Origin: Chloroflexi bacterium 44-23
GTDB taxonomy: Bacteria; Chloroflexota; Anaerolineae; Anaerolineales; Anaerolineaceae
DNA length: 64,000 bases
Assembly: GCA_001899005.1 (NCBI GenBank)
Contig: MKUW01000021.1
Location: 124,001 to 188,000 of the forward strand
Reading direction: 5' to 3'
Under the pieces are notes generated by a model that saw nothing but the letters and a program-made list of their open reading frames with translations, did not search any database and had not been told where the DNA came from. The position numbers were made by a program, and so were the translations under genes. This document shows, piece after piece, positions 2,603 through 51,866 of the stretch. Position 1 is the stretch's first letter; each line of letters opens with the position of its first letter.

Positions 2603-2619
2603 AATTATTATTTCCCTTC

Positions 2620-2673
2620 TTTATCGTATCTTTACAAACTCTTTAATCCGACTTCATACCCATTTGTTATGAT
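2620..2673 (+). promoter_or_regulatory. Promoter with four tandem 11-bp repeats (regulon site A)
   Basis: Four head-to-tail 11-mers begin TTTAT, TTTAC, TTTAA and TTCAT at 2620, 2631, 2642 and 2653. A 4-bp gap and a TATGAT -10 (2668-2673) follow. The same layout recurs at 14958-15011 (minus), 39800-39853 and 43018-43071. The 11-bp direct repeats replacing a -35 box are typical of OmpR/PhoP-family activator sites. Confidence 0.8.
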
Positions 2674-2719
2674 TTAAACAACAAGAAAATAAACTTAATA
2701 CGAAAGGATGTATTTTATT

Positions 2720-2965
2720 ATGATGTACGGATATGGCAATGGCTGGATTGGAATGATTGTAGGGTTGATCGTAACACTACTAATTATCGGTGGCTTAATC
2801 GTTTTTGCAATATGGGCGGTTCGTCGAATGAGTGGACGCTCGGAAACGACACATCAAGCTAGAAGACCCAGTGAATCGGCTCGTGAAATAGCGCAAGCAC
2901 GGTACGCCAAAGGTGAGATCACGCGGGAAGAATATCAAATGATTTTATCAGACCTGGATAAATAA
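2720..2965 (+). CDS. SHOCT-domain membrane mini-protein
   Basis: A small protein with one TM helix (about residues 8-30, 'IGMIVGLIVTLLIIGGLIV') and a C-terminal SHOCT motif 'AQARYAKGEITREEYQMILSDL'. The track start at 2708 abuts the Shine-Dalgarno sequence (gaaagg), so ATG 2720 or 2723 is the likelier start. SHOCT motifs are short oligomerisation elements and no enzyme activity is implied. A second SHOCT gene follows 12 bp later. Expression is probably driven by the 11-bp-repeat promoter just upstream, which links it to a SHOCT pseudogene at 43112, BON and DUF302 genes. Confidence 0.85.
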   Translation: MMYGYGNGWIGMIVGLIVTLLIIGGLIVFAIWAVRRMSGRSETTHQARRPSESAREIAQARYAKGEITREEYQMILSDLDK

Positions 2966-7000: not shown

Positions 7001-10000
7001 GCACTGCGCTGGAATTCGGCTGCTTCTGGTGCGAATCCCAGAAGATTACTTTCCGAATCTTTCTCAGGGAGCTGGCCTAAATAATTAAAACGAATACCCG
7101 GCGTAGCCTGCTTAAGTTGGTCAAGTTTTTTTGCAAATGGGCTGAGATAACGAAAAACACCATAGCCCACACCATGACGAGGAACAAGACGTAATTGTTC
7201 TTTAATTAGTTTGATTGCCTCTCCCTGATCCGGGTTCCTCGAAAGTGATAAATAAATTGGGTAAAGCGTTGTAAACCAACCCACACTTCGGGTTAGATGA
7301 ATGCCTTTAACAATATTTTCCCGCCCGTGGGCTTCCAAATCAATAGCCAGCGTGTCCTCTCCCGTCCAATTTTTAAAAGCACGTGCCATCGCTGTAAGTA
7401 AAAAATCTAAAATCTCCGCCCCAAAAGCGGCAGGGGCTTCCCTTAACAGGATCCGGGTCTCTTCTTCTGAGAGAGACCGGGTCACCTGCCGGGCTGTAGA
7501 TTCTTTATTAAGATCCGATAAGGACTGGTCTGTAAAATCAAAATCTATTGGCAGTGACGGTGTGTCCATTACCAGTGTTTTTTCCCAGAAATTTGTTTCC
7601 TTTAAAAATTGTGGTGAATTAGCATACGTTTTTAATTGCTGTGCCCAGGCTTTATAAGAGGCAGTGGTGGGGGAAACAGTAACCGGATTACCCTTTTCAG
7701 ATTGCAGGTATGCCTTTTGAAGATCAGGCAGCAAAATATGCCAGGAAACTGCGTCTATGGCAAGATGATGAACGACGATTAGAAGGCGGCCTGGACGGTC
7801 TTTTCCTACATTAAAATACACCAAACGAATCAGAGGCCCTGTAGCTATATTAAGACTTTGCTGCTGCGTTTCGATTTGTTTTTTAAGCGCATCATCTTGT
7901 TGTAAAGGGGGAAAATTTGAAAAATCAAACAAATCACAGGGCACTTCTACTTTATCGAGAATTTCTGGTCGCCAACCGGAATTCGCCGGATAGTAACGCA
8001 TCCGAAACACATCATGCTGATTGATAACGACTGCGGCTGCCGCACTTAAGTGATGGATCTGGAGCGGTTTCTCCGCCACAAACAGAATTGATTGGTTCCA
8101 ATGATGTGGATTCGCAAAATTTTGTTCAAAGAACCAGTGTTGAATCGGCGTGAAATAAATCGGCCCTGAATCATCATTTAGCTCCGGTGGATTGTGTGCT
8201 GGCGTCACTTGTTCGGCTAAGGCTGCTAATTGTTTGATCGTTGGCGCTTGAAAAATGTGCTGCGGATTGATTTTTAATCCGGCTTCTTCGGCATGGATAA
8301 CCACTAAAATGCTCATGATCGAATCGCCCCCCAGTTCAAAAAAATTATCCTCGACACTTACCTTGTCGATTCCCAAAACTTTTTGCCAAATTAAAACGAA
8401 AATTTGCTCCTTTTCATTATTTGGAACATCTAATGACTCACTTTGCTTGGACAATACGTAATCCATTTTAAGAAGTACCTGGCGATCAATCTTCGCAGAA
8501 GGAGTAAGTGGAAATGATTCTAACGGTACAAAAGCGGTAGGCACCATGCTGCGCGGTAATTGCTGGCTCATAAATTGAGAAAGTTTTGTGGGTGAAATAA
8601 ATTTGCCTTTTTTGGGAACAATATAAGCCACCAGTTGTTTTACATGGGATTGAGGATGATTTAACAACAAAACCACAGCTTGTTTAACGTCCTTGTGTTG
8701 GGATAAAACCATCTCAATTTCACCCAATTCAATCCGCATGCCATGAAATTTCACCTGAGAATCGGCTCTGCCCATAAACAATAAGTTGCCATCCGGGAGG
8801 TATCGGGCTACATCGCCGGTTCGGTATAAAGTCTCTCCTTTTATAAAAGGAGACGAAATAAAACGTTCAACGGTTAAATCAGGTTGGTGGATATACCCAC
8901 TCGATATACCGACTCCCCCAATCAGTATTTCTCCCGGCATTCCCTGCGGTACCACTTGCAAGGTTTCGTTTAATAAATATATTTTTGTATTGGCAACGGG
9001 TTTCCCAATGGGTGTATTACCATTGTGAGGGGCAGCAGGATCCACCTGATATAGTGTGCTGCAAATGGTCGTCTCGGTCGGCCCATACCCATTCAGCAAA
9101 CACAAACCAGGGATCTGGTTGCAAATAGTCCTTAGCAGGCGGTCAGGGATTGGCTCTACCCCCACCAACAGCCGACGGAGCGAGGACGCATTAGGATGGT
9201 TTATTGCCCATTTCGAAAAATCTTCCATTAAAAAAGGGGGTAAATAGGCACTGTGAATTTGATTCTCGACCATCCAGGTAAAAAGCTTGGAAGCAATTAA
9301 GCGGATTTTTTCAGGGATAACAAAAAGGACCCCGCCCGCCAACAAAGGGGAAAATATTTCGTAAACGGAAACATCAAAACTAGGACTGGTCCACCAACTA
9401 CATTGCTCTCCTGGCTGAATCGATTGTCGCCGCTGAAAATCCGCCAATAGATTAACAACACCTCGATGAGCCAACATTACCCCTTTTGGACGACCACTGG
9501 AGCCTGAAGTATAAATTACATACGCCAATTGATCGGGGGCATGGTTAAGCATAAGGTTGGGTCGCTTTTTAATATTTTGCTTATTAAGCGCTGAATCCAG
9601 ACAAATCACAGAGTCTTGGAAGTCTGGCATTATTGCGTGTTGTTCCTGTGTTGTAATAATAAAAATAGGCTTTGCTTCCGCGATGATGAAGTCCAGCCGT
9701 TGGTTCGGAAAGCCCGGGTCCAGAGGCAAATATGCGCCTCCAGCTTTTAAGACCCCCAAGATGGCTACAACCATCGAAACAGAAGATTCTAAGTAGATCC
9801 CCACGATACCATTCTTATCAACGCCCTTTTCTCGGAGCAAATAGGCCAACTGATTGGCTTTTTGGTTAAGTTCTTTGTACGTTAATTGGTCTTCACCATG
9901 TACCACAGCGAGCGCATGGGGTGATCTTTGCACTTGTTTTTCAAAAAGTTCATGCAGGCATACTGAGTCAGGATAGGCGGATTCTGTATCATTCCACTGA

Positions 10001-11436
10001 TTAATTAGTAATTCCTGCTCGGATTCCGGCAAGATTTGGAGAAGGGAGACTGGTTTTTGCGGATCGTGTGTTATTTCTTCAAGCAGCGTGCAATAACTTT
10101 GTGCTAAACGAGCGATCATATCTCTGTCAAAAAGGTCTGTCGCATATTCCAGGGAGATGATTATTTCATCATTTGTCTCAGCAGCCATCATCATCAATTC
10201 AAATGGCGCAGTACGGTGGGCAATATGCACAGAACGAATCGAGAGACCTTCCAGATCAATTTGCTGGCTGCCTTGTCCTAACATAAATGGACCAGCATTT
10301 TTTTTGGGAATGATAGGGGGCGCTTGTTGCCATGAAAAAACCGTCTGAATCAGCGGAGAACGACTGAGTTCCCGGTTTGGCTGAAGGTTTTGTACCAACT
10401 CAGCAAAAGGATACCAATCATATTGACTGCCTTCTTCGATGGATTGGTGTACTTTGTTTAATAATTCCAGAAAATTCATCTCATCCGAAAAAGCAGTTCG
10501 GACGATCATTTGATTGACAAAATACCCGACAACACGAATGGTAGAAAGATTCCTGCCAGCTTTTGGGAAACCCACCAAGATATCCTTCTGACCCGTGTAA
10601 CGATATAAAAGGGCTTGGTAGGCAGCGAATAGAACTGTATAGAAGGGTACTTTTTGTTTTTCTGCCAAGTTGCGGAGTTTGTGTGTTCGTTCCCTATTAA
10701 GATGGAAAAAATGAACAGCACCTTGGCCGGTTAATTCCGTTGGCCGGGGCAAGCTGGTAGAGAGGTTAAGGGTGGGAAGTTCACCTGACAAATTATTGCG
10801 CCAATAATTCCAGGCTGCTTCCCCTTGTTTGCCCCCTAATTTATCTTTTTCTCGGATCATATTATCTTGATAGGTTTTATGGAGCGTCCGTAAGGAGGCC
10901 GGAATCCCGCTTGTCTCCTCACGATAAATACCGGCTACTTCCGACATAATGATCGCACTTGACCATAGGTCAGCTACTATATGATGAAATACAAAAAGAA
11001 TTAAAGGCTGCCTTTTTATTTTTTTCATCTCATCATCAAAAAAAAGAGGGGCGTTCAAAATCACCGTCACGCGCCAGGTTGGCCCCTTTTCTAAATCAAA
11101 GGGGCGGTATGCTTCTTCCTTTATAAACTCGTCCAGTTGATCTGGATGCCATATAGCCCCCTTCTGCAAGCTATAAGAGATCTCCATGGCAGGTTGTACA
11201 CGTTGAACCGGTTCTCCCTGTTCGATTGTAAACAAGGTTCGCAGCATAGGATGCCGCTCTGCAAGTTTTTGTAGGGATTTTTTTAAAGCTTCCAGATCCG
11301 TATCATCTGGCACTGCAACCGCCGCGGCAATATGATAGGCAACATTGGTAGGGGCCAATTTATAATGAAACCACAATGCGGATTGTCCACGTGAAAGCGG
11401 ATAACTTTGAAATTGAGTTGATTTATTGGTTTGCAT
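4009..11436 (-). CDS. Nonribosomal peptide synthetase, C-A-PCP-E-C-PCP-TE
   Basis: A 2475-aa assembly-line enzyme. Domains by motif position: C1 (His motif 'HHIVADLWS', about 154); A ('YTSGSSGRPKG' about 642, 'NGYGPTETT', 'YRTGDVARY', A10 'SAKIDRQ'); PCP1 ('FFELGGDSIMS', about 1032); E ('HHLAIDAVSW' about 1225, 'EAHGREN', 'RFNYLGQ'); C2 ('HHHALLDGWS', about 1712); PCP2 ('FFELGGDSLSG', about 2082); TE ('GWSVGG', about 2233). Only one A domain is present, so PCP2 must be charged in trans or not at all. Aligning the pocket by eye to the PheA frame gives D-V-Y-Y-L-G-G-I-C-K, a non-charged pocket with no confident substrate. E makes a D-residue and C2 would then be of the D-L type. No MbtH, transporter or phosphopantetheinyl transferase gene is nearby. 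Confidence 0.93.
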   Translation of the reverse strand: MQTNKSTQFQSYPLSRGQSALWFHYKLAPTNVAYHIAAAVAVPDDTDLEALKKSLQKLAERHPMLRTLFTIEQGEPVQRVQPAMEISYSLQKGAIWHPDQLDEFIKEEAYRPFDLEKGPTWRVTVILNAPLFFDDEMKKIKRQPLILFVFHHIVADLWSSAIIMSEVAGIYREETSGIPASLRTLHKTYQDNMIREKDKLGGKQGEAAWNYWRNNLSGELPTLNLSTSLPRPTELTGQGAVHFFHLNRERTHKLRNLAEKQKVPFYTVLFAAYQALLYRYTGQKDILVGFPKAGRNLSTIRVVGYFVNQMIVRTAFSDEMNFLELLNKVHQSIEEGSQYDWYPFAELVQNLQPNRELSRSPLIQTVFSWQQAPPIIPKKNAGPFMLGQGSQQIDLEGLSIRSVHIAHRTAPFELMMMAAETNDEIIISLEYATDLFDRDMIARLAQSYCTLLEEITHDPQKPVSLLQILPESEQELLINQWNDTESAYPDSVCLHELFEKQVQRSPHALAVVHGEDQLTYKELNQKANQLAYLLREKGVDKNGIVGIYLESSVSMVVAILGVLKAGGAYLPLDPGFPNQRLDFIIAEAKPIFIITTQEQHAIMPDFQDSVICLDSALNKQNIKKRPNLMLNHAPDQLAYVIYTSGSSGRPKGVMLAHRGVVNLLADFQRRQSIQPGEQCSWWTSPSFDVSVYEIFSPLLAGGVLFVIPEKIRLIASKLFTWMVENQIHSAYLPPFLMEDFSKWAINHPNASSLRRLLVGVEPIPDRLLRTICNQIPGLCLLNGYGPTETTICSTLYQVDPAAPHNGNTPIGKPVANTKIYLLNETLQVVPQGMPGEILIGGVGISSGYIHQPDLTVERFISSPFIKGETLYRTGDVARYLPDGNLLFMGRADSQVKFHGMRIELGEIEMVLSQHKDVKQAVVLLLNHPQSHVKQLVAYIVPKKGKFISPTKLSQFMSQQLPRSMVPTAFVPLESFPLTPSAKIDRQVLLKMDYVLSKQSESLDVPNNEKEQIFVLIWQKVLGIDKVSVEDNFFELGGDSIMSILVVIHAEEAGLKINPQHIFQAPTIKQLAALAEQVTPAHNPPELNDDSGPIYFTPIQHWFFEQNFANPHHWNQSILFVAEKPLQIHHLSAAAAVVINQHDVFRMRYYPANSGWRPEILDKVEVPCDLFDFSNFPPLQQDDALKKQIETQQQSLNIATGPLIRLVYFNVGKDRPGRLLIVVHHLAIDAVSWHILLPDLQKAYLQSEKGNPVTVSPTTASYKAWAQQLKTYANSPQFLKETNFWEKTLVMDTPSLPIDFDFTDQSLSDLNKESTARQVTRSLSEEETRILLREAPAAFGAEILDFLLTAMARAFKNWTGEDTLAIDLEAHGRENIVKGIHLTRSVGWFTTLYPIYLSLSRNPDQGEAIKLIKEQLRLVPRHGVGYGVFRYLSPFAKKLDQLKQATPGIRFNYLGQLPEKDSESNLLGFAPEAAEFQRSAANHRPHLIEIDASIYQGKLQVNWTYSDRLHKKITMERFATFFLNELRSLITYAQNPKIWGYTPSDFPDIKRTQSDLDALVDAASLVQTSPHKRNLEAIYPLSSMQRSMVLPTLFTPESDVYVQQIIFTFLGTLDMPAFQKAWQFMLNRHAILRTSFIWQGAKDLVQVVHKHLPLEIELQDWENFPPLKQTERFDKRIQVERKRGFDLSSPPLFRLFVLRVSDGVYRILFTHHHALLDGWSLPTLFKELFTAYEGLTQHKEISLPPVKPYRDYISWLQSQDLSKAEAFWQNALSGISKTPLSPVRETSSPGVGKLSTAELKKNLSVHTTSKLKTFARKQQLTLGTIMQGAWAILLSRAFQRDEILFGITIGGRPYELKGVESMVGLFINTLPLKITVSPNILLIEWLQQIQKTALNIQQYGYTPLLKIPGWVGIPHNTFLFESILVFENYPAFHEMLESFDGLAIRDIRSVEKTTYPLTVAITPGEKINLRILYDLDKFKANFVQQLIDELIQILELIVTGSNQPLFNLLSLNEPDFHLHLKDGVSPNEVKSKNQTGGMAEKDTTHQNTGFDISNKSLERYLSQLWGELLNIKEVKRYDNFFELGGDSLSGAICVSQLQDALNESVSLTAIFEAPTVFALSNYLIQHHPKGVSEFLGIEINHSERVERTKLPTSLVPIQPKGSKPPLFCIHPAGGVVFPYYTLAAYMGKEQPVYGIQDPQLFDSQHESKSIETMAAHYVEVLKTIQPEGPYNLLGWSVGGVVAYEMAQQLTKQGQLVNNLIMLDTNAPHLANDHHSETSIIEKLKQVKEWGLSIPNQIQKKWFAIDPILNYMRSGLFLLSSYGNRKNGSGQRKPKLKDLLGWAVLDTWRTRLLQEAEIAQTVSQEESLLLIKMPGVRRILKLIRKHQQIVQQYTAQPYRGNITLFRAVDFDSDGNEKQVSALGWQQLVEGQMTVHPIQANHVAFLVKPTVKTLAQELSECLDQNAVQSQRINDLTET

Positions 11437-16381: not shown

Positions 16382-17128
16382 TTATAATGAAACTCCTTTT
16401 TTTTCTTCATCAGTAGAATCAATCCAGGTATATAACATCCAAAGTGAAGCAGCTAAAACCATTAGCGCAATAATCTGAGATACCCGAAAACCACTCCAGA
16501 TTGTGCTGTCACCTCTAAAGGCTTCTATGAATAAACGCGAAGCGGATGAGAGGGCAATTACCAGCCAGAAACTACGTCCGCTGCCCGGTTTCAAAGGATA
16601 TTTCAAAATAATGAACAGAATAATTATCGCAAGCAGGGTTTCATAGATTTGAGTAGGATGACGATATTCGTTCCAGAGATAAATTGACCACAGTGTATCG
16701 GATGGTATCCCAAAAGCATCTCCGCTTAGTAAATGAGCCAGACCCTGAAACACCAAAAATACTGCCAAAGCTGGCGCCAGGGCATCCAAAGCGAGGCGAA
16801 CACCTAGTTTTTTGCGTTGCCCATAGAGGAATGCAGCAAACAACCCAATCATCAATCCTTCAGGGATAGAGAGTGTTTCCGGGGTAAGTGCAAAAAGACT
16901 TAATGGATTAGAGATGTAAGCGTTTATAAACCTGGCAGCATAAGCTGCCCTTGCCCCGATCAGACCAGCAATTAAACCGATAAAGATCAAATTGGAAATT
17001 AGATCGGATTTGATACCTATTCTCAACGCGCGTTTTTCCGCAATCCAAGAACCGAACCACACTCCTATTAATAAGGATAGACTGGCCAGTGGTAATAAGA
17101 ACGGTCCTAAACGTAGATAAGGTAACAT
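16382..17128 (-). CDS. Divergent Lgt-like membrane protein
   Basis: 248 aa, about seven TM helices. It keeps Lgt landmarks 'GLIGARAAY', 'HPTQIYETLLAI' and 'RLFIEAFRGDS'. It lacks the (H/E)GGL motif seen in true Lgt enzymes (compare 'WEGGLAIWGG' at 30967); here the stretch reads 'SIPEGLMIGL'. It is fused to the ccdA-tlpA operon: its ATG lies 1 bp after the tlpA stop. A specialised diacylglyceryl transferase or a non-catalytic paralog supporting cytochrome/thioredoxin maturation are both possible. Confidence 0.8.
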   Translation of the reverse strand: MLPYLRLGPFLLPLASLSLLIGVWFGSWIAEKRALRIGIKSDLISNLIFIGLIAGLIGARAAYAARFINAYISNPLSLFALTPETLSIPEGLMIGLFAAFLYGQRKKLGVRLALDALAPALAVFLVFQGLAHLLSGDAFGIPSDTLWSIYLWNEYRHPTQIYETLLAIIILFIILKYPLKPGSGRSFWLVIALSSASRLFIEAFRGDSTIWSGFRVSQIIALMVLAASLWMLYTWIDSTDEEKKGVSL

Positions 17129-18838: not shown

Positions 18839-19074
18839 AAAACCTCCTGAATTAAAAAATTTCGATATCCTAGCTCAAAGACATGTCCTAATAGGTTAAT
18901 ATAATAAATTAAAATTCTAATCATCTAAAGCGCCATTACACTCAAAGGAAGATAAGCATAATGGCTACCCTCCCTCCAAAAATATATTATTCTATAAGGA
19001 CTAAATGGGGTTTAACGTGTTCACTCTATAAGAGAATGACGAATCAACTTTGCAACAACAGACAATTATGCCTA

Positions 19075-19103
19075 TTGTGAAATATTTTTTGACTATTTAC
19101 AAT
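19075..19103 (+). promoter_or_regulatory. Promoter TTGTGA-17-TACAAT (copy 1)
   Basis: -35 TTGTGA at 19075-19080, a 17-bp spacer and -10 TACAAT at 19098-19103. A 16-bp string around the -35 (tatgcctattgtgaaa) is identical to that at 22922-22937, and the downstream ttacaatt lies at the same distance. Confidence 0.65.
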
Positions 19104-19400: not shown

Positions 19401-19745
19401 TTACTCAATCAAAACATCGGGTGGGGTGACCGCCATCCTGATCAGGCCGCCGGTGATCAACCCCAAGGCTAACCCCACCACTCCCCAAAAGACGTGGAAG
19501 GTAAACGGGGTCATCGAGAATAACCCTTCCCATCCGGGAATTGTGATGATCCCTTGAAACATCAATACCCCAAAAATGAGACCAATCCCAGTGCCGACCA
19601 AAATCCCCAACCATGTTGCAGACCATATCCCATCGGGAAAGGATTGAAAGTGAATTGCCTCTGGTCTGGATTTATCATAATACAGGACTTCTTCTTGGCT
19701 GACCTTTTGCATTTCAGAAATTTGCGTGTTTTTTGAATTATCCAT
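19401..19745 (-). CDS. Two-TM membrane protein of unknown function
   Basis: 114 aa with two long hydrophobic segments (about 45-67 and 83-107, the first Gly-rich: 'GILVGTGIGLIFGVLMF') and a polar N-terminal 35 residues. AAGGAGG lies well placed before ATG 19745. It ends a three-gene minus-strand operon with two large envelope proteins (15-bp and 13-bp gaps). No family recognised; an accessory subunit of that envelope complex is a reasonable guess. Confidence 0.75.
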   Translation of the reverse strand: MDNSKNTQISEMQKVSQEEVLYYDKSRPEAIHFQSFPDGIWSATWLGILVGTGIGLIFGVLMFQGIITIPGWEGLFSMTPFTFHVFWGVVGLALGLITGGLIRMAVTPPDVLIE

Positions 19746-19759
19746 CTTATTTTTCCTCC

Positions 19760-20977
19760 TTACTCTTCAAACGGATAGGCTTCTAAAAGAGTATCCAATT
19801 CGACCTGGGTTTGCCAACTGATGGTTTCTTCACCACCAATGATCCAGCCGTGGTTTAACAGTTGCTGTTGGGCATCGGTTGGATAAGGTTTCAGTACCAT
19901 CAGGTAGTTTCTTACACTATCCGGGACACCGTCCCCATCTAATATCAATACAGGGGCGTGTTTCCCCATGTGGCTTAAGGTGGTGGCGGTCACTGCGTTT
20001 TGCCAGCCCGTCGGTCCATCGAGGTTTACAAACACGGCGTTATGGCCTGCTTCCGAAATCCCCCAGCCAAAATCACGCGCTTTTTGCCAGAACCAGGCGC
20101 CCCAGTCCGCTCCAATATCCTTAAACCCGGAAAAATAAGCACTGATTGCGGATGGATCATTGCGCGGCATACGGGTCACCTGTCCATATTGGGCCAGCTC
20201 ACGTACCACATGCTCTGGCACGATGCTTTCATCCCCAAATACATAGATCCAGGCCCCATTGGCACGTCGTTTTAAGATTTCTTTGGTGGCTTCCGGTACA
20301 CCCTCGGATGTGACATACGCAAACCCTTGCCCCATGTGGGCATTCCAATAGGCTGCCGGGATCGCCATTTCGGGGTGTTCGATATTGGCAATCGCGACCT
20401 CATTCGGATGGTCACCATGTTGGGTGGAGGTCCAATTATCCACCACTTCTGCCAGTTGAATGGGATCAGGTGCGGTGAAGACGCGGGTTTTAAACCCCAA
20501 TTGGTTGACCGCATCATTGACGGAAGCATCAATGGTTCCCACAAGATAAACTTGTACATTACCATCCGCCGGCACACCTTCCGGGTTGAGTCGCAGCAAT
20601 TCGTTGCGGGTGATTTGCGGCAGGTTAGACTGTTCCACGTACAACAACGGCGCGTTTACCGGAAAATGTTGAATCCGGTTTGCAGCCACTAGCAGTTCCG
20701 GCAGGTTGTTAATGTTAACCAATATGACAGCGCCCGGTGTGTTTTCTTCTTCTGTCGCCGGATAAATGACCTGTGCCACGGCAACCGCCGTTTCAAACGC
20801 ATCATCAGAGCCAATGCGGGTGGTGTTAACCGTCAGCAGTTCACTGTTGGATGGCAAGGAAGCGATATCCGCCGGTTTTTGATCGGCAAGATAGGCTTTG
20901 GCAATTAAGTTCGTGCCTGTGAAAATTAAAATCGCTGTAACAAGAACGATGAGTATACTTATTAATCCTTTTTTCAT
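19760..20977 (-). CDS. Envelope protein resembling cell-wall-binding repeat 2 (CWB2)
   Basis: 405 aa with an N-terminal anchor or signal helix (about 5-27). The rest resembles CWB2-type folds: 'TTRIGSDDAFETAVAVAQVIYP', then 'PLLYVEQSNLPQITRNELLRL' and 'VYLVGTIDASVNDAVNQL', i.e. the successive 'opening, gap, ID-label' pattern of that family, and again in the second half. CWB2 repeats usually hold Gram-positive surface proteins to wall polymers; in this setting a different ligand is possible. GGAGG precedes the ATG. Its neighbour at 20990 shares the same fold in its N-terminal half, so the two probably arose by duplication and may form one complex. Confidence 0.7.
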   Translation of the reverse strand: MKKGLISILIVLVTAILIFTGTNLIAKAYLADQKPADIASLPSNSELLTVNTTRIGSDDAFETAVAVAQVIYPATEEENTPGAVILVNINNLPELLVAANRIQHFPVNAPLLYVEQSNLPQITRNELLRLNPEGVPADGNVQVYLVGTIDASVNDAVNQLGFKTRVFTAPDPIQLAEVVDNWTSTQHGDHPNEVAIANIEHPEMAIPAAYWNAHMGQGFAYVTSEGVPEATKEILKRRANGAWIYVFGDESIVPEHVVRELAQYGQVTRMPRNDPSAISAYFSGFKDIGADWGAWFWQKARDFGWGISEAGHNAVFVNLDGPTGWQNAVTATTLSHMGKHAPVLILDGDGVPDSVRNYLMVLKPYPTDAQQQLLNHGWIIGGEETISWQTQVELDTLLEAYPFEE

Positions 20978-20989
20978 TAAAATAGCCTC

Positions 20990-22741
20990 CTACATCAATC
21001 CGCTTTTATTTTGTTTGCGGATCAAAACATAATTGAGCGGCCAGGCTACCAACAAAGCAGTAAAGGCGGTGAAAAACATCACCCCAAACCAAAGGATAGA
21101 TTCTTCGGTTGGCATCATGGGGATCTTTGACATCATTAAGTACCACATGAGGGGGTTCATTCCGATGGCAGCAAATGTCATCGAAATTAATACCATTGGT
21201 AGTGATTTCCCCAGCGTTTCGCGATAGGGTTTGTTGGTATACATAGCCATCATTGGGGTTTGGAAAACCAGCCACGAGACCAATACTGCGACCACAAAGT
21301 TAATGATCATCAGTAAGATCATAGGTGTACCTAATAAAAATGCACCGGTCAACCGGTTGGGAATCAGCGGCATGCCAAAAAATGTGGTCAGATAACCGCT
21401 GGTGATCATGATCGAGGCCCCAAACCCAACCGCTGAAACGGTAGCGGCCAACCCTTGCAGCCAGAGCGGGCGATCCCAGACGATCATCCCGTTTGGTAAA
21501 CGGATAATGGGACGCCGATAGGCGAGATAATACAGTAACAAACCAAAGGGGCCGATCAGCAAGGCTAATAATGGCCAGGCCAGACTCATAACCCAGTTTT
21601 GTTTTGGCAAAAACTTAAATTGGTGGAGTAAGATCCATATCGCGGAAGCCATACCCATCAGTACCCAAAAAACGGCGATCAGGTCGATGCCGCTCATGCC
21701 TACGCCTTTCCCAAAGTATGGTCCAATCTCAACAGCATAATCAACTTGACCTTGTGCTTTAAAGGAAATTTGGTTTTCGTCTCCAATGATCCAGAAATGA
21801 TGGAAAGGGCCTTCTGCGGGTGTAACCCAAAAAGCTGCTCGTTGTGACCAGAAATAATTATTCACCCCCGCTGGCAATTTTTCGGTTCCAGACCACATCA
21901 GCGGGCCTGGTTTGCCGTGGATCGCCAGGTTGGCAGCAGTTAACGCCATTGCAGGGTTATTCGGATTTGCGACAATATAGGCGCGGTATCCTGCGAGGGT
22001 GTTAGCGTTAAAAGCCCACCCAAACAAAGTGTTTTGGGGGTCTTCGTATTTGGCAAAGGTAACTGCCAGCGCATCCGGGGTTTTAGCGGTGATGCTGGTA
22101 AAACCATCGGTCTGGATCCCCAGACTATAGCGGTTCAGCCCAGCAGGGGCATCAGCCGCATCAAAAATGATCAGATCGCCGCTGTACGCTGCCCAGGGGG
22201 CGGCCAACAAGGCCGTTTCGGGGGTATCTTTATCTACCAGAATGACATTCTGGGGAGCGAGGCCATATCGTTGACGCAAACCGAGAATATCATCCAGCAT
22301 CAGGTTTTCACCTGTTAGCCCATCGGCCTGTACCCCATCTAACAACACCACCCCATTATTGGTAAAGTCATTCCGGGTGGGGTTTAACCGCGCCACCTCT
22401 TCCCGCACGTTTTCCGTTACAGGCAGCAGGACCCCTTTCATCGGACGTAACAAAGGGGTGGCTGCCAATCCGGCCTGCCAGTTTTGCGGATCAAATAAAA
22501 AAACGGTTTCTGGTTGGCTGTCCGGGTAAACAGCAGTACTGATCCTTGTACTGACCTCTTCCAAGGATGATCCCGCAAACCGGGTTGAATTTTTCGTGTT
22601 TAAGTGAAGCCGCGCTTCACTCTTGGTAGGTGGCTGCATGGATCGATACGGGACACCAATCATCCCGCTGATTAAAATCGCCGCAAGTAAGGCAGCAACC
22701 ACCACAGCCAACGGTTGTAGAGTTTTGGAATTTGATTGCAT
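20990..22741 (-). CDS. CWB2-like extracellular domain fused to DUF4396-like membrane domain
   Basis: 583 aa. TM anchor about 9-29, then an extracellular half with CWB2-like phrases ('SSLEEVSTRISTAVYPDSQ', 'NGVVLLDGVQADGL'). Around residue 345 it re-enters the membrane: about seven helices, ending 'SILWFGVMFFTAFTALLVAWPLNYVLIRK', which resembles DUF4396. AGGAGG precedes ATG 22741. It heads the minus-strand operon and is divergent from the selenoprotein/CuA operon across 250 bp. The fusion suggests a sensor or receptor linked to a channel-like module; biochemical role unknown. Confidence 0.7.
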   Translation of the reverse strand: MQSNSKTLQPLAVVVAALLAAILISGMIGVPYRSMQPPTKSEARLHLNTKNSTRFAGSSLEEVSTRISTAVYPDSQPETVFLFDPQNWQAGLAATPLLRPMKGVLLPVTENVREEVARLNPTRNDFTNNGVVLLDGVQADGLTGENLMLDDILGLRQRYGLAPQNVILVDKDTPETALLAAPWAAYSGDLIIFDAADAPAGLNRYSLGIQTDGFTSITAKTPDALAVTFAKYEDPQNTLFGWAFNANTLAGYRAYIVANPNNPAMALTAANLAIHGKPGPLMWSGTEKLPAGVNNYFWSQRAAFWVTPAEGPFHHFWIIGDENQISFKAQGQVDYAVEIGPYFGKGVGMSGIDLIAVFWVLMGMASAIWILLHQFKFLPKQNWVMSLAWPLLALLIGPFGLLLYYLAYRRPIIRLPNGMIVWDRPLWLQGLAATVSAVGFGASIMITSGYLTTFFGMPLIPNRLTGAFLLGTPMILLMIINFVVAVLVSWLVFQTPMMAMYTNKPYRETLGKSLPMVLISMTFAAIGMNPLMWYLMMSKIPMMPTEESILWFGVMFFTAFTALLVAWPLNYVLIRKQNKSGLM

Positions 22742-22914
22742 TTTTCCTCCTGAAGTTAATATTAAGAGGGTATCTTCGTTAAGAAAGAGTTCCCCTTAAT
22801 TAACGTACCGCAGGGAAGAGGGAGAAGCAATGCGGATTTTGCCTGATGCATATAAGGAAATTCCCTATTGTAAACAATTCAGATACTTTTTTAAAGCTGT
22901 GTGAAGAAATTAAC

Positions 22915-22928
22915 AGGCATATATGCCT
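22915..22928. promoter_or_regulatory. Perfect 14-bp palindrome next to -35 box
   Basis: AGGCATATATGCCT is a perfect palindrome ending 1 bp before the -35 hexamer of the selenoprotein operon promoter. The position fits a repressor or activator operator. The copy at 19068 keeps only the right half, so the palindrome is specific to this promoter. Confidence 0.6.
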
Positions 22929-22929
22929 A

Positions 22930-22958
22930 TTGTGAAAAAAAATCCTGCCCTTTACAAT
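22930..22958 (+). promoter_or_regulatory. Promoter TTGTGA-17-TACAAT of selenoprotein/CuA operon
   Basis: -35 TTGTGA at 22930-22935, 17-bp spacer, -10 TACAAT at 22953-22958. Transcription would begin near 22965, which rules out the track start at 22923 and supports ATG 22992 behind AAGGAGG. It matches the orphan promoter at 19075. Confidence 0.7.
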
Positions 22959-22991
22959 TATTTTAATTTATCCTATTTGAAGGAGGCCATG

Positions 22992-23489
22992 ATGGCTGCC
23001 CAAAAAAAATATTCGTCAAAATCAAAAAAGGTTCAAAAGAAAAAAGAGACAAAAACCCCGCTATTTCTTATCGCGGGTGGTGTTATTATTTTACTGATTG
23101 CTTCGTTATTTGTTTTCGGGAAAAAACCGGAACGATTCACGCCCGAGGTTGTTGGCTCTCCTAAATTACAAGTGGATGATTCGCTAGTAGATTTGGGAGA
23201 TGTTCAGTTGGGGAAAACTGTTCAGACTTCATTTAAGGTCCACAATGTTGGAGATCAGGATCTGCACTTCACCCAAAAGCCTTATGTGGAAGTTAAGGAG
23301 GGGTGTTGACCACCCACTCCCGTCATCGGTTCGATGACTCTCAAACCAGGTGAATCTACCACCATTTCCATGCAATTTATGATGCATGGTGATATGGGTG
23401 GCCCCCATGACTTCCGCCTTCATTTACCAAATGACGACCCTGCCCAGCAAGATCTATCTTTGACCGTGCTTTCCAATTGGGTGCCGTAA
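22992..23489 (+). CDS. Predicted selenoprotein, DUF1573-like, UGA at codon 106
   Basis: 165 aa if the in-frame TGA at 23307-23309 is read as selenocysteine. N-terminal Lys-rich tail, one TM helix ('PLFLIAGGVIILLIASLFVFG'), then a DUF1573/ASH-like beta domain ('VDLGDVQLGKTVQTSFKVHN'). The reading frame continues past TGA with clearly coding sequence: 'EVKEGC-U-PPTPVIGSMTL', 'KPGESTTISMQFMMH' and 'MGGPHDFRLHLPNDDP', up to TAA 23487. From memory of this family, relatives carry Cys-Cys-Pro-Pro at this spot, so U replaces Cys. A 7-bp hairpin with a GUU loop lies 12 nt after the UGA (see 23322). Start ATG 22992 (or 22989) follows AAGGAGG. It opens a redox operon with PCYCGC and CuA proteins. The track lists only the first 128 codons as a complete ORF. 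Confidence 0.85.
23322..23338 (+). promoter_or_regulatory. Candidate bacterial SECIS hairpin
   Basis: gtcatcg-gtt-cgatgac: a perfect 7-bp stem with loop GUU starting with G. Nineteen nt separate the UGA from the loop, within the 16-37 nt usual for bacterial SECIS elements bound by SelB. It lies inside the coding sequence, as expected. Confidence 0.75.
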
Positions 23490-23603: not shown

Positions 23604-24080
23604 ATGAAAAATAACCAATTTATAAATTTCTCTTTTCGTGCTCGTGCTTCTCTCTTGTTTTTATTTGTACTGCTGCTTGGTTCCCTTTCATCTTGCAGCG
23701 GTAACAACACAACCGAGGAAAACACATTGGATTTAGCCCCGCTCTCCGTCTTACCAATGGCAATGCAGCAGTCGCCTGTCACAGTGCGGGAATCGTATCA
23801 ATTTGCAGTTGCCAATTCGGAAGCGTTAAAAAATGTGCCATGTTATTGTGGCTGCAATGCGATGGGGCATACCTCTAACTATGATTGTTATATTCAAGAA
23901 ATCCAACCCTCCGGGGATATTGTCTTTGATGAGCACGCCTTGGGTTGTTCGATTTGTGTTGATATCTCTCAGGATGTGATGAAAATGACCCGTGATGGAA
24001 AACCTGCCCTGGAGATCCGAGAATTCATTGATCTGACCTATGCTCAATATGGGCCATCCAACATGCCGCCGGTGGAATAG
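23604..24080 (+). CDS. PCYCGC-motif lipoprotein
   Basis: 158 aa. Lipoprotein signal ending 'LLGSLSSC'. The family-defining 'NVPCYCGCNAMGHTSNYDCY' is followed by a second Cys pair 'ALGCSICVDISQDV'. Five or six conserved cysteines suggest Cu or other soft-metal binding or thiol redox on the cell surface. PCYCGC proteins are known in Firmicutes and related Gram-positives, with no established function. It follows the selenoprotein by 114 bp and precedes the CuA protein by 4 bp, so it belongs to this operon. Confidence 0.88.
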   Translation: MKNNQFINFSFRARASLLFLFVLLLGSLSSCSGNNTTEENTLDLAPLSVLPMAMQQSPVTVRESYQFAVANSEALKNVPCYCGCNAMGHTSNYDCYIQEIQPSGDIVFDEHALGCSICVDISQDVMKMTRDGKPALEIREFIDLTYAQYGPSNMPPVE

Positions 24081-24084
24081 GTTT

Positions 24085-24591
24085 ATGAAATTACAGGTTA
24101 CAGGCAGTGATTTGATAAACCGTATTAAAAACAAATGGTGGTTTTTTGTGCTCCTTATTGCGGCCGTACTGATCATTTTTGTCCCGCTGCCACAAGCACA
24201 AGCAGCCGCGGTGGACCGGCATCTTCGTATCGAAGCCAGCATGTATCAGTTTACCCCAGGGGTGATCAAGGTCAATCGGGGAGATAAGATCACGCTTGAT
24301 CTGGTTTCGATGGATGTGGTACATGGACTTTCAGTGGATGGATATGATTTTGAATTAATAGCCGATCCGGGACAAACGCAAACTGCCGCTTTTATTGCCG
24401 AAAAAACGGGTGTGTTTCGCTTTCGGTGTTCGGTGGCCTGTGGCAATTTACACCCCTTTATGATTGGAAAACTTCAAGTCGGCCCGAATTTGATGTTTAT
24501 CCGTGCTATGCTGCTCGGATTATTGGCGATGGCGGCGGCGTTTTGGTCTTTGCGTAAACCATTCCCCAATCTGAAAGAGGTCAACCATTGA
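24085..24591 (+). CDS. Membrane-anchored CuA cupredoxin (Cox2-like)
   Basis: 168 aa from ATG 24085. One N-terminal TM helix ('WWFFVLLIAAVLIIFVPL'), a cupredoxin domain and a second TM helix at the C-terminus. All CuA ligands are visible: His in 'MDVVHGLSVDGYDFEL' and C-x3-C-x3-H-x2-M in 'RCSVACGNLHPFM'. CuA is the binuclear copper electron entry site of cytochrome oxidase subunit II and nitrous oxide reductase. No oxidase subunit I is nearby. It is 4 bp after the PCYCGC gene and overlaps the Fe-S gene start. Confidence 0.9.
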   Translation: MKLQVTGSDLINRIKNKWWFFVLLIAAVLIIFVPLPQAQAAAVDRHLRIEASMYQFTPGVIKVNRGDKITLDLVSMDVVHGLSVDGYDFELIADPGQTQTAAFIAEKTGVFRFRCSVACGNLHPFMIGKLQVGPNLMFIRAMLLGLLAMAAAFWSLRKPFPNLKEVNH

Positions 24592-25913
24592 ATCGGATTG
24601 ATCTGACCCGTTTTCCAACGACAAATTTATTACTGCGCAGCCGCTGGCCCCAATTCCTTATCCGCGCCATCACCCTGGCGGGATTTGTTTTCACGATTTT
24701 AGCCGGGTTGTTTGGTTCCGTGGTGGGCAGCCATAATTTTGCAATTATTTTTGTGTGGATCGCCTGGTGGAGTGCGCTGAAGTTATTTTTCATTCCCTTT
24801 GGCGGGCGTTCCTGGTGTAGTATTTGCCCGATTCCCATGCCCGGCGAATGGATGCAAAAGCGAGGGGTTTTTTCTCCAACGGGAAAGGGTTTTGGTTTGG
24901 GTAAACGATGGCCTAAAAAACTACGTGGTAACTGGCTGCAGGCTGGTGGTTTTCTTCTGATCGGATTATTTGGGGCTGTCACCCTCACTTCTGCAAAAGT
25001 AACAGCAATCATCTTGTTCTTTATTATTGCGTTGGCTTTTATCCTGAGTCTTATTTTTGAACGGCGCTCCTTTTGTAACTACTTGTGCCCGATCGGCGGC
25101 TTTACCGGTTTATATGCCCAGGCTGGCCCGGTGGAGGTACGGGTGAAAGATAAGCAGGTTTGCGCAGAACACAGTGAAAAAACTTGTTACACAGCCTGTC
25201 CCTGGGGGCAGTATCCGCTGGCATTAAAATCCAGTGCAGATTGCGGGTTATGTATGGAATGCCTGCGAGTCTGCCCATCCGACAATATTGCAGTGAATCT
25301 GCGTCCTTGGGGCAGTGACCTGGGCCAAAACACAAAACACAATCCGGGAGAAGTTTTCCTGGGGTTGGTGATGCTGGCAAGCGTGCTGGTTGATTCGGTT
25401 GTCTTTTTAGGTCCGTGGGGGCAGCTAAAGACCGCGGCATATGAAGTTGGCAGCCTACCCTGGCTGATTTTTGCTGGCGTGTTTTTAGTTGTTTCTTTGG
25501 GTGTGCTGCCAGGGCTCTATTCAGCCGCCATGTGGGGTGCAGTCAGGTTGGGTTCTGCCAAAACCACTTTCCGAAAAACATTGTCCAAGTACGGGCAGGT
25601 TTTGGTGCCGCTGGGTCTGATGGCATGGATCGCCTTTACTGTTTCATTCGCGTTTGTAAAATTTTCTTATGTGTTGCCCGTTATTTCCGATCCTTTTGGT
25701 TGGGGGTGGAATCTGATCGGTATGTCCGGTACGGCAAGTATTGGGCAATCAACTTCATGGAGTGGATGGATTCAAATCCTCCTTTTGGTCATCGGGTTGT
25801 TTTGGGCCAGCAGGGTAACACAGCAGATCAGCGAGAGCAAAAGACAGGCGCTGCCCATCATTGCGTTTTCCGGTGTTTTTACGGTGAGCATGTTATGGTT
25901 GTTGATTGGATGA
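24588..25913 (+). CDS. NapH/NosR-like membrane iron-sulfur protein
   Basis: 441 aa with about seven to eight TM helices. Cys groups: 'SWCSICPIPMPGEW', 'FCNYLCPIGGFTGLY', 'CYTACPWGQYP', and a ferredoxin motif 'CGLCMECLRVCP' for a 4Fe-4S cluster. This layout resembles NapH/YccM/NosR C-terminal parts that move electrons from quinol or flavin across the membrane. TTG start at 24588 overlaps the previous stop (TTGA), implying coupling. Sandwiched between two CuA proteins, it is likely the membrane step feeding them. Confidence 0.87.
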   Translation: MNRIDLTRFPTTNLLLRSRWPQFLIRAITLAGFVFTILAGLFGSVVGSHNFAIIFVWIAWWSALKLFFIPFGGRSWCSICPIPMPGEWMQKRGVFSPTGKGFGLGKRWPKKLRGNWLQAGGFLLIGLFGAVTLTSAKVTAIILFFIIALAFILSLIFERRSFCNYLCPIGGFTGLYAQAGPVEVRVKDKQVCAEHSEKTCYTACPWGQYPLALKSSADCGLCMECLRVCPSDNIAVNLRPWGSDLGQNTKHNPGEVFLGLVMLASVLVDSVVFLGPWGQLKTAAYEVGSLPWLIFAGVFLVVSLGVLPGLYSAAMWGAVRLGSAKTTFRKTLSKYGQVLVPLGLMAWIAFTVSFAFVKFSYVLPVISDPFGWGWNLIGMSGTASIGQSTSWSGWIQILLLVIGLFWASRVTQQISESKRQALPIIAFSGVFTVSMLWLLIG

Positions 25914-25920
25914 TTGTTTT

Positions 25921-26925
25921 ATGAAAAAAGAAGTGTTAGCCCGTTTTTTGGTTGTCTTTTTTGTAACACTTGTGATCCTGATTTTTGTACTTGGGTGGCA
26001 GAAAAATCGAAGTCAACACACAGGCACCATTTTAATCCATGCCCGCATGCCGGAAAATGGCGGGTGGAGTGTCACCTCGATCACTGGGGAAACGAATCAA
26101 CCGATCAACCTGAGATTAACTAGCGATGATGTCGTACATGGTTTTGCCGTTGGGAAATCTGACCAGCCAACAGTCGAACTTATACCGGGAGAATTTGTAG
26201 AGACCACCCTCTTATTTGATGAACCGGGCACATACACCTATTATTGTACGCGCTGGTGTGGGCCAAATCATTGGCGGATGCGCGGCACGATTGACGTGCA
26301 GGGGGAGGAGGCAGCTGTCACCAATCCCCCGCCCTTGTATCTCCAATTGGGCATTGATATTGACGCGCCACACGAAGCTGATGTTATTCCAAGTGAACCG
26401 GTGCTGCTCCAAAAGGGCGCTGCCTTTGCAGAAGACTTGCCAGCGTATGTTTTCGAGCAAGAGATTTACTTAACAAACAGCCCGGCAAACGTATGGTCAC
26501 GTTTACGGGCGGAACCCGACTTGTCCGCATTAAGTGATGAGGATGTATGGAATGTGGTAGGTTGGGTCTGGCAGGAAAACACCTCACCAGCCGCCATTAA
26601 AACCGGTGAAAGCCTGTATGCCGAAAATTGTGCGGCCTGTCATGGCGAAACAGGCGAGGGGGATGGTGTGATGGTGCGTGATCTTCCCAAACCAGAGGCA
26701 GAAGCGCATGATATGGATGATCCGCATTCAGAATCAACAACAGCGGGTCTAACCCGTCCACATGATCTGACTGATCCGGATCATCTACTGGGTGCCAGCC
26801 CGGCCTTACTGTCCGGAAAGATCATCCGCGGGGGGATGGGCACGGGTATGCCCTATTGGGGACCCATTTTTACCAGCCAGCAAATTGATGCCCTGGTGAG
26901 TTATTTATATACTTTTGCGTGGTGA
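25921..26925 (+). CDS. CuA cupredoxin-cytochrome c fusion
   Basis: 334 aa from ATG 25921. N-terminal TM anchor, then a cupredoxin domain with the CuA set: His in 'DVVHGFAVGKSDQPTVEL' and C-x3-C-x3-H-x2-M in 'YCTRWCGPNHWRM'. A C-terminal cytochrome c has 'ENCAACHGETGEGDG' and a likely Met ligand 'GGMGTGMPYWG'. The CTRWC spacing recalls the NosZ CuA site. CuA/cyt c fusions occur in some oxidase subunit II proteins, but there is no oxidase here. It closes the operon, 7 bp after the Fe-S gene. Confidence 0.9.
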   Translation: MKKEVLARFLVVFFVTLVILIFVLGWQKNRSQHTGTILIHARMPENGGWSVTSITGETNQPINLRLTSDDVVHGFAVGKSDQPTVELIPGEFVETTLLFDEPGTYTYYCTRWCGPNHWRMRGTIDVQGEEAAVTNPPPLYLQLGIDIDAPHEADVIPSEPVLLQKGAAFAEDLPAYVFEQEIYLTNSPANVWSRLRAEPDLSALSDEDVWNVVGWVWQENTSPAAIKTGESLYAENCAACHGETGEGDGVMVRDLPKPEAEAHDMDDPHSESTTAGLTRPHDLTDPDHLLGASPALLSGKIIRGGMGTGMPYWGPIFTSQQIDALVSYLYTFAW

Positions 26926-30904: not shown

Positions 30905-30966
30905 AATCATTAATTGTTCTTACCCGTTTGCTCATGTTGCAAACGGGTAAATTATTAGAGGTATGT

Positions 30967-31770
30967 ATGATCACAATTTCAATCAATCCGATATTATTTT
31001 CAATTGGACATTTTCATATTCGCTGGTACAGCTTAATTGTCACTGCTGCTATTTTTATTGGCGGATGGTTAGCAATTCGGGAAGCCGGTAGAAAAGGGTT
31101 TACCACAGAAAGTGTGACCAATGGATCCTTATGGATTATTATTGCCGGATTAGTTGGTGCCAGACTTTTTCACGTGATAGACCATTGGTCGGATGTCTTT
31201 GCAATGAATCCCGTCCGTGCTTTTTATATTTGGGAAGGCGGTCTAGCCATTTGGGGTGGTGTCGTCGGTGGGTTGATTGCGGCTGTCATCCTTGCCCGTG
31301 CCCAACATTGGAAATTACCACGCTTTTTGGATGCCTTGGTTCCAGGTGTTGTTTTGGGACAAGCTGTTGGGAGGTTAGCCTGCGTAATCACTGGTGACTC
31401 AATTGGAAAGGTTACAAGCGGGCCTTTTGGGTTTGCATATACAAGCCCAAATGCTATGGTTCCGCAACTCGGTGTATATTATACACCTACCCCTGTCTAT
31501 GAAATATTCATGAACTTGGCAATCTTTGCTCTTTTGTGGAACTTGCGCAAGAAAAACTTGCCGGATGGAATTTTAACACTGATTTATTTGCTTACGTATG
31601 CTGTAATTCGGTTTTTTATTGCTTTTACCAGCGCATACAAAATTATCGCTTTTGGTCTTAATCAAGCCCAAATTGTTAGTATTCTTGTTTTTACCATAAG
31701 TGCACCATTATTGATTTTCCTAACAACGCAGAAAAGAAAACTTTCTGTTAGAAGTAAGTCAATGTCATAA
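30967..31770 (+). CDS. lgt: Prolipoprotein diacylglyceryl transferase
   Basis: 267 aa from ATG 30967 (GAGG upstream). Seven TM helices. Lgt landmarks: 'FHIRWYSLIV', 'WIIIAGLVGARLFHV', 'WEGGLAIWGGVVGGLI', 'GQAVGRLACVITGDSIG' and 'PTPVYEIFMN'. It transfers diacylglycerol to lipobox cysteines, giving the lipoproteins seen here their anchor. This copy keeps the (H/E)GGL loop that the operon copy at 16382 lacks, so it is the probable housekeeping enzyme. Confidence 0.93.
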   Translation: MITISINPILFSIGHFHIRWYSLIVTAAIFIGGWLAIREAGRKGFTTESVTNGSLWIIIAGLVGARLFHVIDHWSDVFAMNPVRAFYIWEGGLAIWGGVVGGLIAAVILARAQHWKLPRFLDALVPGVVLGQAVGRLACVITGDSIGKVTSGPFGFAYTSPNAMVPQLGVYYTPTPVYEIFMNLAIFALLWNLRKKNLPDGILTLIYLLTYAVIRFFIAFTSAYKIIAFGLNQAQIVSILVFTISAPLLIFLTTQKRKLSVRSKSMS

Positions 31771-33073: not shown

Positions 33074-34147
33074 TTGAGAAAAATTCACTACCTTTTCCCG
33101 ATTATCATTGCGAGTTTATTTCTTTTAACTGCTTGTTCCACCCAAAATAAATCTGAGATTTTGAATGTTATGGAATCTGAAGATAAATTAAGTGCAACCG
33201 TTACACCCGGTACTATGACGACTTCTTCCGATAATAACCACATGATGCAACCGATCAGTGTGGAGAATATTCAAAACGCCTCAGAGGAAATCGGCGGTCA
33301 ACCCCTTGATTTTCGTTTAGAAGGTAATGTAAAAGTGTTTGAATTAGTTACGAAACCGGTTACGTGGCAAATTATTCAAGATGTTTTCGCAACTGCCTGG
33401 ACGTATAACGGTACTGTTCCCGGACCAATGATTCGGGTGACCGAAGGTGATGTTGTTCGAATTCTGATTAAGAACGAATTGCCAGAACCAACCACAATCC
33501 ATTGGCATGGCATAGCTGTACCAAATGCAATGGATGGCATTCCCGATATTACCCAGAAACCAATTCTCCCAGGAGAGACCTTTACTTATGAGTTTATCGC
33601 TCAGCCTGCGGGAACATACATGTATCATTCACATTACGAAGGAGATGTTCAAGTTTCTGCTGGGTTATATGCCCCCTTCATCGTTGATCCGAAAGAACCA
33701 ACTTCTCCTGCACCAAGTGTTGACGTTAATTTGATGATTTCCGAATGGCTACTTAGAGATGGAGAAACCTTTGCAGCCATGCCGATGGCGGGCATGGAGC
33801 CTAATTATTTCACTATCAATGGCAAAGCTTTTCCGGATACGGAAACTATCAATGTAAAGAAAGGACAACTCGTTCGCTTACGCCTGGCAGGGATTGGTCA
33901 ATTAGTTCATCCAATTCATTTGCACGGTGTTCCTTTTACAATTGTGGCAACTGATGGGCATCCTGTTCCAAAAGCAGCCCAACTAACCAAAGACACCGTC
34001 TTAGTTTCGCCGGGTGAACGTTATGATATTGAATTCATTGCTACAGAATCAGGTCAGTGGCTATTGCACTGCCATATTCTTCATCATACAACCAACAACA
34101 ATGTTGAACCAGGGGGTCTAATGTTGATAATTAATGTTACAGATTAA
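33074..34147 (+). CDS. Multicopper oxidase lipoprotein (copper resistance/laccase-like)
   Basis: 357 aa with TTG start 8 bp after AGGAG. Lipobox 'LFLLTAC'. Copper motifs in order: 'TIHWHGIAVPN', 'YMYHSHYEGDVQ', 'HPIHLHGVPF' and 'WLLHCHILHHTTNN', giving the trinuclear and type 1 sites. Only two cupredoxin domains fit this length, so it belongs to the short class related to Cu-type nitrite reductase and small laccases. The wider setting suggests Cu+ oxidation. The YtkA-like lipoprotein follows 14 bp later. Confidence 0.93.
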   Translation: MRKIHYLFPIIIASLFLLTACSTQNKSEILNVMESEDKLSATVTPGTMTTSSDNNHMMQPISVENIQNASEEIGGQPLDFRLEGNVKVFELVTKPVTWQIIQDVFATAWTYNGTVPGPMIRVTEGDVVRILIKNELPEPTTIHWHGIAVPNAMDGIPDITQKPILPGETFTYEFIAQPAGTYMYHSHYEGDVQVSAGLYAPFIVDPKEPTSPAPSVDVNLMISEWLLRDGETFAAMPMAGMEPNYFTINGKAFPDTETINVKKGQLVRLRLAGIGQLVHPIHLHGVPFTIVATDGHPVPKAAQLTKDTVLVSPGERYDIEFIATESGQWLLHCHILHHTTNNNVEPGGLMLIINVTD

Positions 34148-47864: not shown

Positions 47865-48635
47865 ATGACCACAAAAATTATCACTATCTCGAACCAGAAA
47901 GGTGGGGTAGGAAAGACAACCACCGCCGTAAATCTGGGACATGCTCTCACTCTGAAAAATAAACAAGTGTTGTTGGTTGACCTTGATCCACAAGGGCAGT
48001 GCGCATCCAAGTTGGGCATGGATAGCCAAATGGGAACATATTATTTCCTGACGACTCAGCCAGACTCTCCAAGTGAAATAACATTTATCCGCCAATGGGT
48101 CCGTGATACAGGCCGCGATTTCTTGCAGTTGATTCCAGGCAACTCAATGACCTCCGCTGCGCAAATGATGTTGGGTGTTCAGGACCAACCGATCTCGTAC
48201 ATAAAAGGGCTGCTCAAAACATTCACTAAAGACCGTTTTGATTACATCATTTTCGATACCTCCCCATCTGTGGGTGGCTTGCAGGAACGCGCAATTTGGG
48301 CAGCAGACCTGGTGATTGTTCCTACTGCAACAGAATTCGCATCATTAGATTCATTAGCAAAGACAGTCACGACCATCCAGACATTGAGGGTCAAAAAGAA
48401 TTGGCAAGGGGGATTGCTGGGGATATTACCTACCTTTTTTGATAGTACCAACGAGTCACGCAACTCGCTGCAGGATCTGCAGGTAACATTCAGCGACAAG
48501 GTGCTTTCTCCCATTCATCGGGCGACTGTTTTGCGTGAATGTTGGTCTGAGGCAAAGACCATTTTTGAGTATGCGCCAGAAACGCGGGCTGCCGAGGAAT
48601 ATAAAGCTTTATCAGCTCTCGTATTGAAATATTAG
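47865..48635 (+). CDS. parA: ParA/Soj-family partition ATPase
   Basis: 256 aa. Deviant Walker A 'SNQKGGVGKTTTAVNLGHAL', Walker A' 'LLVDLDPQGQCASKLG' and Walker B 'YIIFDTSPSVGG'. AAGGAG precedes the ATG. ParA ATPases position plasmids or chromosomes. The next gene is a small basic protein with ribbon-helix-helix-like repeats, the usual form of a CenBP partner in type Ib partition systems, rather than ParB. This supports a replicon of its own or one integrated here. Confidence 0.95.
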   Translation: MTTKIITISNQKGGVGKTTTAVNLGHALTLKNKQVLLVDLDPQGQCASKLGMDSQMGTYYFLTTQPDSPSEITFIRQWVRDTGRDFLQLIPGNSMTSAAQMMLGVQDQPISYIKGLLKTFTKDRFDYIIFDTSPSVGGLQERAIWAADLVIVPTATEFASLDSLAKTVTTIQTLRVKKNWQGGLLGILPTFFDSTNESRNSLQDLQVTFSDKVLSPIHRATVLRECWSEAKTIFEYAPETRAAEEYKALSALVLKY

Positions 48636-48640
48636 AGGTC

Positions 48641-49345: not shown

Positions 49346-49399
49346 TGGCCTCCCTGCGTTCCTGGAAAATCTACCAATATTTTTTCAAGCCAAAAAATA

Positions 49400-51789: not shown

Positions 51790-51866
51790 ATAAGTAATTA
51801 AGTTGAGCATAGCCTTCGAAGGCTTTCGAATTCAAACAAACATTCATGAAGAGGAGAGTACAAATT

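Follow-up and report, generated by a model that had tools for sequence, protein, structure and literature searches.

Copper-resistance systems of the Cop/Pco type (the multicopper oxidase (MCO) CopA/PcoA, CopB, CopC and CopD) are mobile envelope copper modules with histidine and methionine ligands and membrane partners. The CWB2 modules of C. difficile (SlpA SLPH, Cwp6 and Cwp8; PF04122) serve to anchor proteins to the cell wall, and anchoring is lost once PILL in just one repeat is replaced by AAAA (PMC4973711). In SlpH, the core bundle on the pseudo-threefold axis is made of one helix per CWB2, namely a3, a7 and a11 (PMC8881574). DUF4396 (PF14342) has been described as part of a gene cluster for heavy-metal and copper resistance (PMC7760498). 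This is the sole mention of the domain that we found, and the pairing of CWB2 with DUF4396, called unfamiliar in the first-pass annotation of this DNA, is undescribed as far as the literature could be searched. No paper tying CWB2 to copper handling was recognised from titles and abstracts, and many of the matches apparently concern another meaning of "CWB2".

Here we analyse a three-gene cassette in which both domains occur. We consider it probable, from sequence and gene context, that the cassette is a horizontally mobile copper-handling module at the outer face of the cytoplasmic membrane, made up of a CWB2 binder with a histidine site and a methionine-rich membrane partner.

Gene layout, distribution and the divergent CuA operon

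The window, the whole stretch of 64,000 nucleotides that was analysed, belongs to a genome of 4.18 Mb, for which the nearest match with a name is L008, an Anaerolineaceae MAG. The cassette occupies 19401-22741 on the minus strand and consists of three ORFs, with spacings of 12 and 14 bp that make it operon-like. P0001 (583 aa, 20990-22741) has an N-terminal TM segment (about residues 12-30), a CWB2-like outer part (about 45-340) and TM segments with DUF4396 (427-579). P0002 (405 aa, 19760-20977) has an N-terminal TM anchor followed by three tandem CWB2 repeats (about 46-165, 160-272 and 262-401). P0003 (114 aa, 19401-19745) is a small glycine-zipper membrane protein, and its two hydrophobic segments agree with the earlier description of a three-gene operon that includes a small TM protein.

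A scan of GTDB genomes gave matches in L008 (Anaerolineaceae NAT124, 96%) and in a Syntrophaceae genome (UBA6087, 51%; L009), and a search of plasmids added Halomicrobium urmianum, Halobaculum roseum and Pontibacter actiniarum, at 31-35% over 83-94% of P0001. In all five carriers (L008-L012) the DUF4396-CWB2 gene is followed by the CWB2 gene and then, always as the third, by a gene for a small TM protein of the P0003 type. Besides Chloroflexota, the cassette is therefore found in Desulfobacterota, Bacteroidota and haloarchaea, where the two large proteins are 31-54% identical to those of the window, and it is not a chance assembly, because the whole gene order is kept in such distant groups. 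Full-length P0001 turned up once among 396 genomes of the class, and the P0002 family once among 297 genomes from the phylum of L009, in the known carrier. Scans of IMG/VR with A1 and A2 as queries gave no relatives. This patchy spread, with archaeal and bacterial plasmids among the carriers, points to horizontal transfer.

The Pontibacter plasmid (NZ_CP021236.1, L012) has a second DUF4396 gene at 192600-193004, with a similar score and the same open-frame length, which is probably a second copy of the cassette. In the window, genes for a ParA-like ATPase, a replication-like protein and an ssb-like protein were recognised by eye at 47865-54128 (+), and on this basis the copper region may be part of an integrated mobile element. 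An ORF of 2475 aa resembling a nonribosomal peptide synthetase (by eye) lies at 4009-11436 (-).

Three further plasmids (together L013, L014 and L015), from Geobacillus, Paenibacillus and Alkalihalophilus, encode P0002-like proteins and have no DUF4396. These CWB2-His genes of Bacilli are lipoprotein-like, and their neighbours are CopZ-CopA in Alkalihalophilus, CopC/CopD-like and PCYCGC genes in Geobacillus, and a two-component system and MCO in Paenibacillus. In Chloroflexota, L076 encodes an intact single-repeat CWB2-His protein at 8135-8674 (+) (179 aa, LIHHPRNGPILF), near TlpA, LGT and HMA genes, and L075 has a disrupted single-repeat copy at about 2284-2852 (+). The L076 protein could form a homotrimer, and these single-repeat relatives may be remnants.

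The cassette shares a divergent intergenic region (22742-22988) with a CuA operon on the plus strand. The distance of about 250 bp given in the first-pass annotation holds if the first plus-strand gene starts at ATG 22989/22992, the ATG at 22989 being preceded by the Shine-Dalgarno sequence AAGGAGG at 22980-22986; measured from the longest ORF start, at 22923, it is 181 bp. The CuA operon is an adjacent, separate module. Its first gene encodes an OS_HP2-like selenoprotein (22989-23489, +), followed at 23604-26925 (+) by genes for a PCYCGC protein, a CuA-type cupredoxin, a NapH-like membrane ferredoxin and a cupredoxin-cytochrome c. The selenoprotein gene has an in-frame UGA at 23307-23309 (EGC-U-PPTP), where ordinary annotation would end it. 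SelB and tRNA-Sec score above cut-off in the genome, and UGA is found at the same site in the relatives L061, L066, L067, L068, L071-L073 and L008, with Cys in L064.

The two operons are adjacent and divergent both here and in L008, both are copper-themed, and on the Geobacillus plasmid the CWB2-His gene is near the PCYCGC gene. The cassette might on these grounds be a dedicated partner of the CuA operon, delivering copper to the CuA cupredoxins or to the Sec protein. This is improbable. Close relatives of the NapH-like gene, about 40-50% identical, number in the dozens across 298 genomes of the class, and all 14 that were inspected keep the cupredoxin and cupredoxin-cytochrome c neighbours, most of them also PCYCGC; the CuA operon is thus common without the cassette. 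Conversely, in the seven carriers of the cassette or the CWB2-His gene from outside Chloroflexota (searched as the Syntrophaceae genome and, for the others, six plasmids) no close NapH-like protein was found, the best score being 24 bits. The L008 locus is nearly the same as that in the window and hence no independent case. The operons therefore occur apart, which is the outcome that the first-pass annotation had named as refuting its reading; it counts against a conserved partnership and leaves the cassette itself intact. Here the two copper-themed modules appear to have come together locally, and although they may cooperate in this lineage, conservation gives no indication of it.

An exact 13-mer, TGCCTATTGTGAA, is found at 19069-19081 and 22924-22936 (+), in two intergenic or leader regions, and is a candidate operator. 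A palindrome, ATTGTAAACAAT, at 22867 is a possible operator. As a shared operator of the two divergent operons these were the only candidates, and they are too weak for a claim of co-regulation.

CWB2 repeats and conserved histidines

P0002 is matched by CW_binding_2 (PF04122) in Pfam with E 1.3e-8, as are eight of the nine members of its family (best E 4.9e-13), and it is homologous to the CWB2 regions of SlpH, Cwp6 and Cwp8 (E 3.6e-13 to 5e-10). The profiles of its repeats R1, R2 and R3 are mutually homologous, with hhalign probabilities of 96.8-98.4%. Pfam did not detect CWB2 in P0001 of the window itself; it did so in 3 of the 6 members of the P0001 alignment (best E 2e-9), and blastp aligns the outer part of P0001 with P0002 (E 2e-13, 23% over 403 aa), which makes the two homologous. 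The Pfam and blastp results together uphold the initial assignment of a CWB2-like outer domain to both large proteins.

Given that the homology with the C. difficile proteins is genuine, and that the three tandem repeats required for anchoring (PMC4973711) are present, the CWB2 parts might be thought to attach to an anionic polymer of the wall, like their C. difficile counterparts, and so to hold the DUF4396 protein near the wall. We regard this as highly improbable. The proteins are already anchored in the membrane, by a TM segment here and, as judged by eye, by lipobox-like sequences in Pontibacter and the Bacilli and Tat-like sequences in the haloarchaea. The carriers include haloarchaea and Gram-negatives, hosts that are not known to have PSII. 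Anchoring needs PILL in all three repeats (PMC4973711), whereas in the P0002 family the motif reads APLL in R1 and APVL in R3, and in R2 it is replaced by GFAY, GFLW or GLAF outside Bacilli. The membrane tethering, the archaeal and Gram-negative hosts and the missing motif in repeat 2 all suggest that CWB2 here is a homologous fold; membership of the wall-anchoring group is not supported, and anchoring is unlikely. It would in addition leave the invariant histidines unexplained.

These histidines emerge from nine P0002 homologues, which are 32-96% identical to the window protein, in a set where two sequences are 96% identical. They share 34 invariant positions, of which five are histidine (104, 214, 312, 336 and 340; hypergeometric p 6e-4 for n=9 sequences with relatedness ignored). 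When the repeats are aligned with hhalign, H104 pairs with H214 and H214 with H336, R1 against R3 being off by one residue. H104, H214 and H336 each lie at the end of, or directly after, the second helix of their repeat, and the PILL strand comes next. At these positions typical CWB2 proteins from Chloroflexota show a gap or residues other than histidine. Counting helices, with a1 in the HID, suggests that a3, a7 and a11 of SlpH are the second helices of each repeat. From histidines at the ends of these presumed core helices, taken with the SlpH core bundle on the axis, we predict that the axis holds a tris-His site. AlphaFold models made with three sequences had a mean pLDDT of 44.0 for P0002 and 37.8 for P0001, too poor for judging the geometry of the site or for fold searches.

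DUF4396 and the copper neighbourhood

P0001 has a single N-terminal TM segment and a cluster of TM segments at the C-terminus. The latter is where Pfam places DUF4396 (E 2.1e-18, residues 427-579), in a full-length match (67.5 bits against a gathering score of 27, profile positions 2-141 of 141), so that the DUF4396-like membrane domain first described as fused in one of the proteins is confirmed. The CWB2 part of P0001 is without the conserved histidines of P0002. Among six cassette-type P0001 proteins, 10 of 39 invariant positions in DUF4396 are methionine, forming a ladder; as with histidine, the p-values for methionine enrichment were computed with relatedness ignored. Six of these, M474, M521, M528, M536, M537 and M555, are kept in 11-13 of 13 DUF4396 sequences, stand-alone and MCO-fused proteins included. 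Outside the cassette, DUF4396 is found beside CopA and an MCO, or fused to an MCO through a linker rich in His and Met.

The cassette mostly lies beside genes for copper resistance. In the window, an MCO (33074-34147, +) and two Cu-type P1B ATPases (36401-39061 and 40652-42805, +; TIGR01511 633 and 601 bits, cut-off 397) lie 10-20 kb from it, the nearest ATPase being about 13 kb off. In the haloarchaeal, Alkalihalophilus and Geobacillus loci a Cu-ATPase gene stands next to or close to the cassette or CWB2-His gene. At the Syntrophaceae and Pontibacter loci none is immediately adjacent, Cu-ATPases being found only elsewhere on the genome or plasmid; the Pontibacter plasmid carries several. Further neighbours at carrier loci are DUF326 four-helix copper-binding proteins, TRASH, CopZ-CopA, CopC/CopD-like proteins (by eye) and P-ATPases. 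On all six plasmids with the cassette or a P0002-like gene, a Cu-type P1B ATPase scores above the TIGR01511 cut-off. The same holds for the L008 and L009 genomes, but since it also holds for most control genomes, what is informative is limited to the plasmids and the local neighbourhoods. Two prolipoprotein diacylglyceryl transferase (LGT) genes are located within the copper region, at 16382-17128 (-) and 30928-31770 (+), the first of them having TlpA and CcdA-like genes as neighbours.

Histidine and methionine ligands suit Ag(I) as well as Cu(I), and Zn too would suit a tris-His site. The cassette might thus serve another soft or borderline metal (Ag, Zn or Hg), or be an envelope metal sensor instead of a carrier, and both the Zn/Cd-type ATPase at 60703-63279 in the window and the Metal_resist (PF13801) protein near the Syntrophaceae cassette would fit with another metal. 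We think this rather unlikely, since the ATPases near cassette members are of the copper type and the MCO and DUF326 neighbours point to copper. As for a sensor, Pfam found no signalling domain in the three cassette proteins.

Proposed mechanism and relation to known systems

In the copper-handling module that we favour, P0002 would be tethered to the membrane and would bind copper by the conserved histidines of its three CWB2 repeats. The main site is predicted to be a tris-His site to which the repeats contribute one residue each, H104, H214 and H336, on the pseudo-threefold axis at one end of the bundle of three central helices. P0001 would combine its His-less CWB2 part with a Met-rich DUF4396 membrane domain that would accept, relay or move Cu(I), and P0003 would be a small membrane partner. 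We infer that the proteins bind metal, that the metal is copper, that the site has this geometry and that the three proteins interact; as to the direction of transport, the neighbouring genes favour detoxification. The CWB2 fold would thereby be reused for metal handling in place of wall anchoring.

More tentatively, and with a good deal less confidence, we suggest that the CWB2 fold may have turned into a dedicated copper protein, in which a tris-His copper site with threefold symmetry takes one His from each of three repeats (or of three single-repeat chains) and feeds DUF4396, a Met-ladder domain that would be a new type of copper carrier in bacteria and archaea. A copper-handling role for the cassette would provide a function for DUF4396, a widespread membrane domain of unknown role, would identify archaeal and Gram-negative proteins annotated "cell wall-binding repeat" as metal proteins, and would add a cross-domain mobile module to the envelope copper-handling systems.

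The cassette can be compared with three known systems. With the C. difficile CWB2 modules it shares three tandem repeats, sequence homology and presumably the same pseudo-threefold fold. Unlike them, the cassette proteins are membrane-tethered, occur also in archaea and Gram-negatives, have an incomplete set of PILL motifs, carry invariant histidines at the ends of the presumed core helices and are encoded in an operon with DUF4396. To Cop/Pco copper resistance the cassette as proposed is similar in outline, whereas its three proteins have different folds, with no Pfam match to any Cop/Pco family. With the DUF4396 proteins that are fused to an MCO, or encoded next to one, beside CopA, it has in common the membrane domain, the Met ladder and the setting in copper islands. 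Their extracytoplasmic partner is a C-terminal MCO, whereas that of the cassette is an N-terminal CWB2-like part, and the cassette has two further members, another CWB2 protein and the small TM protein.
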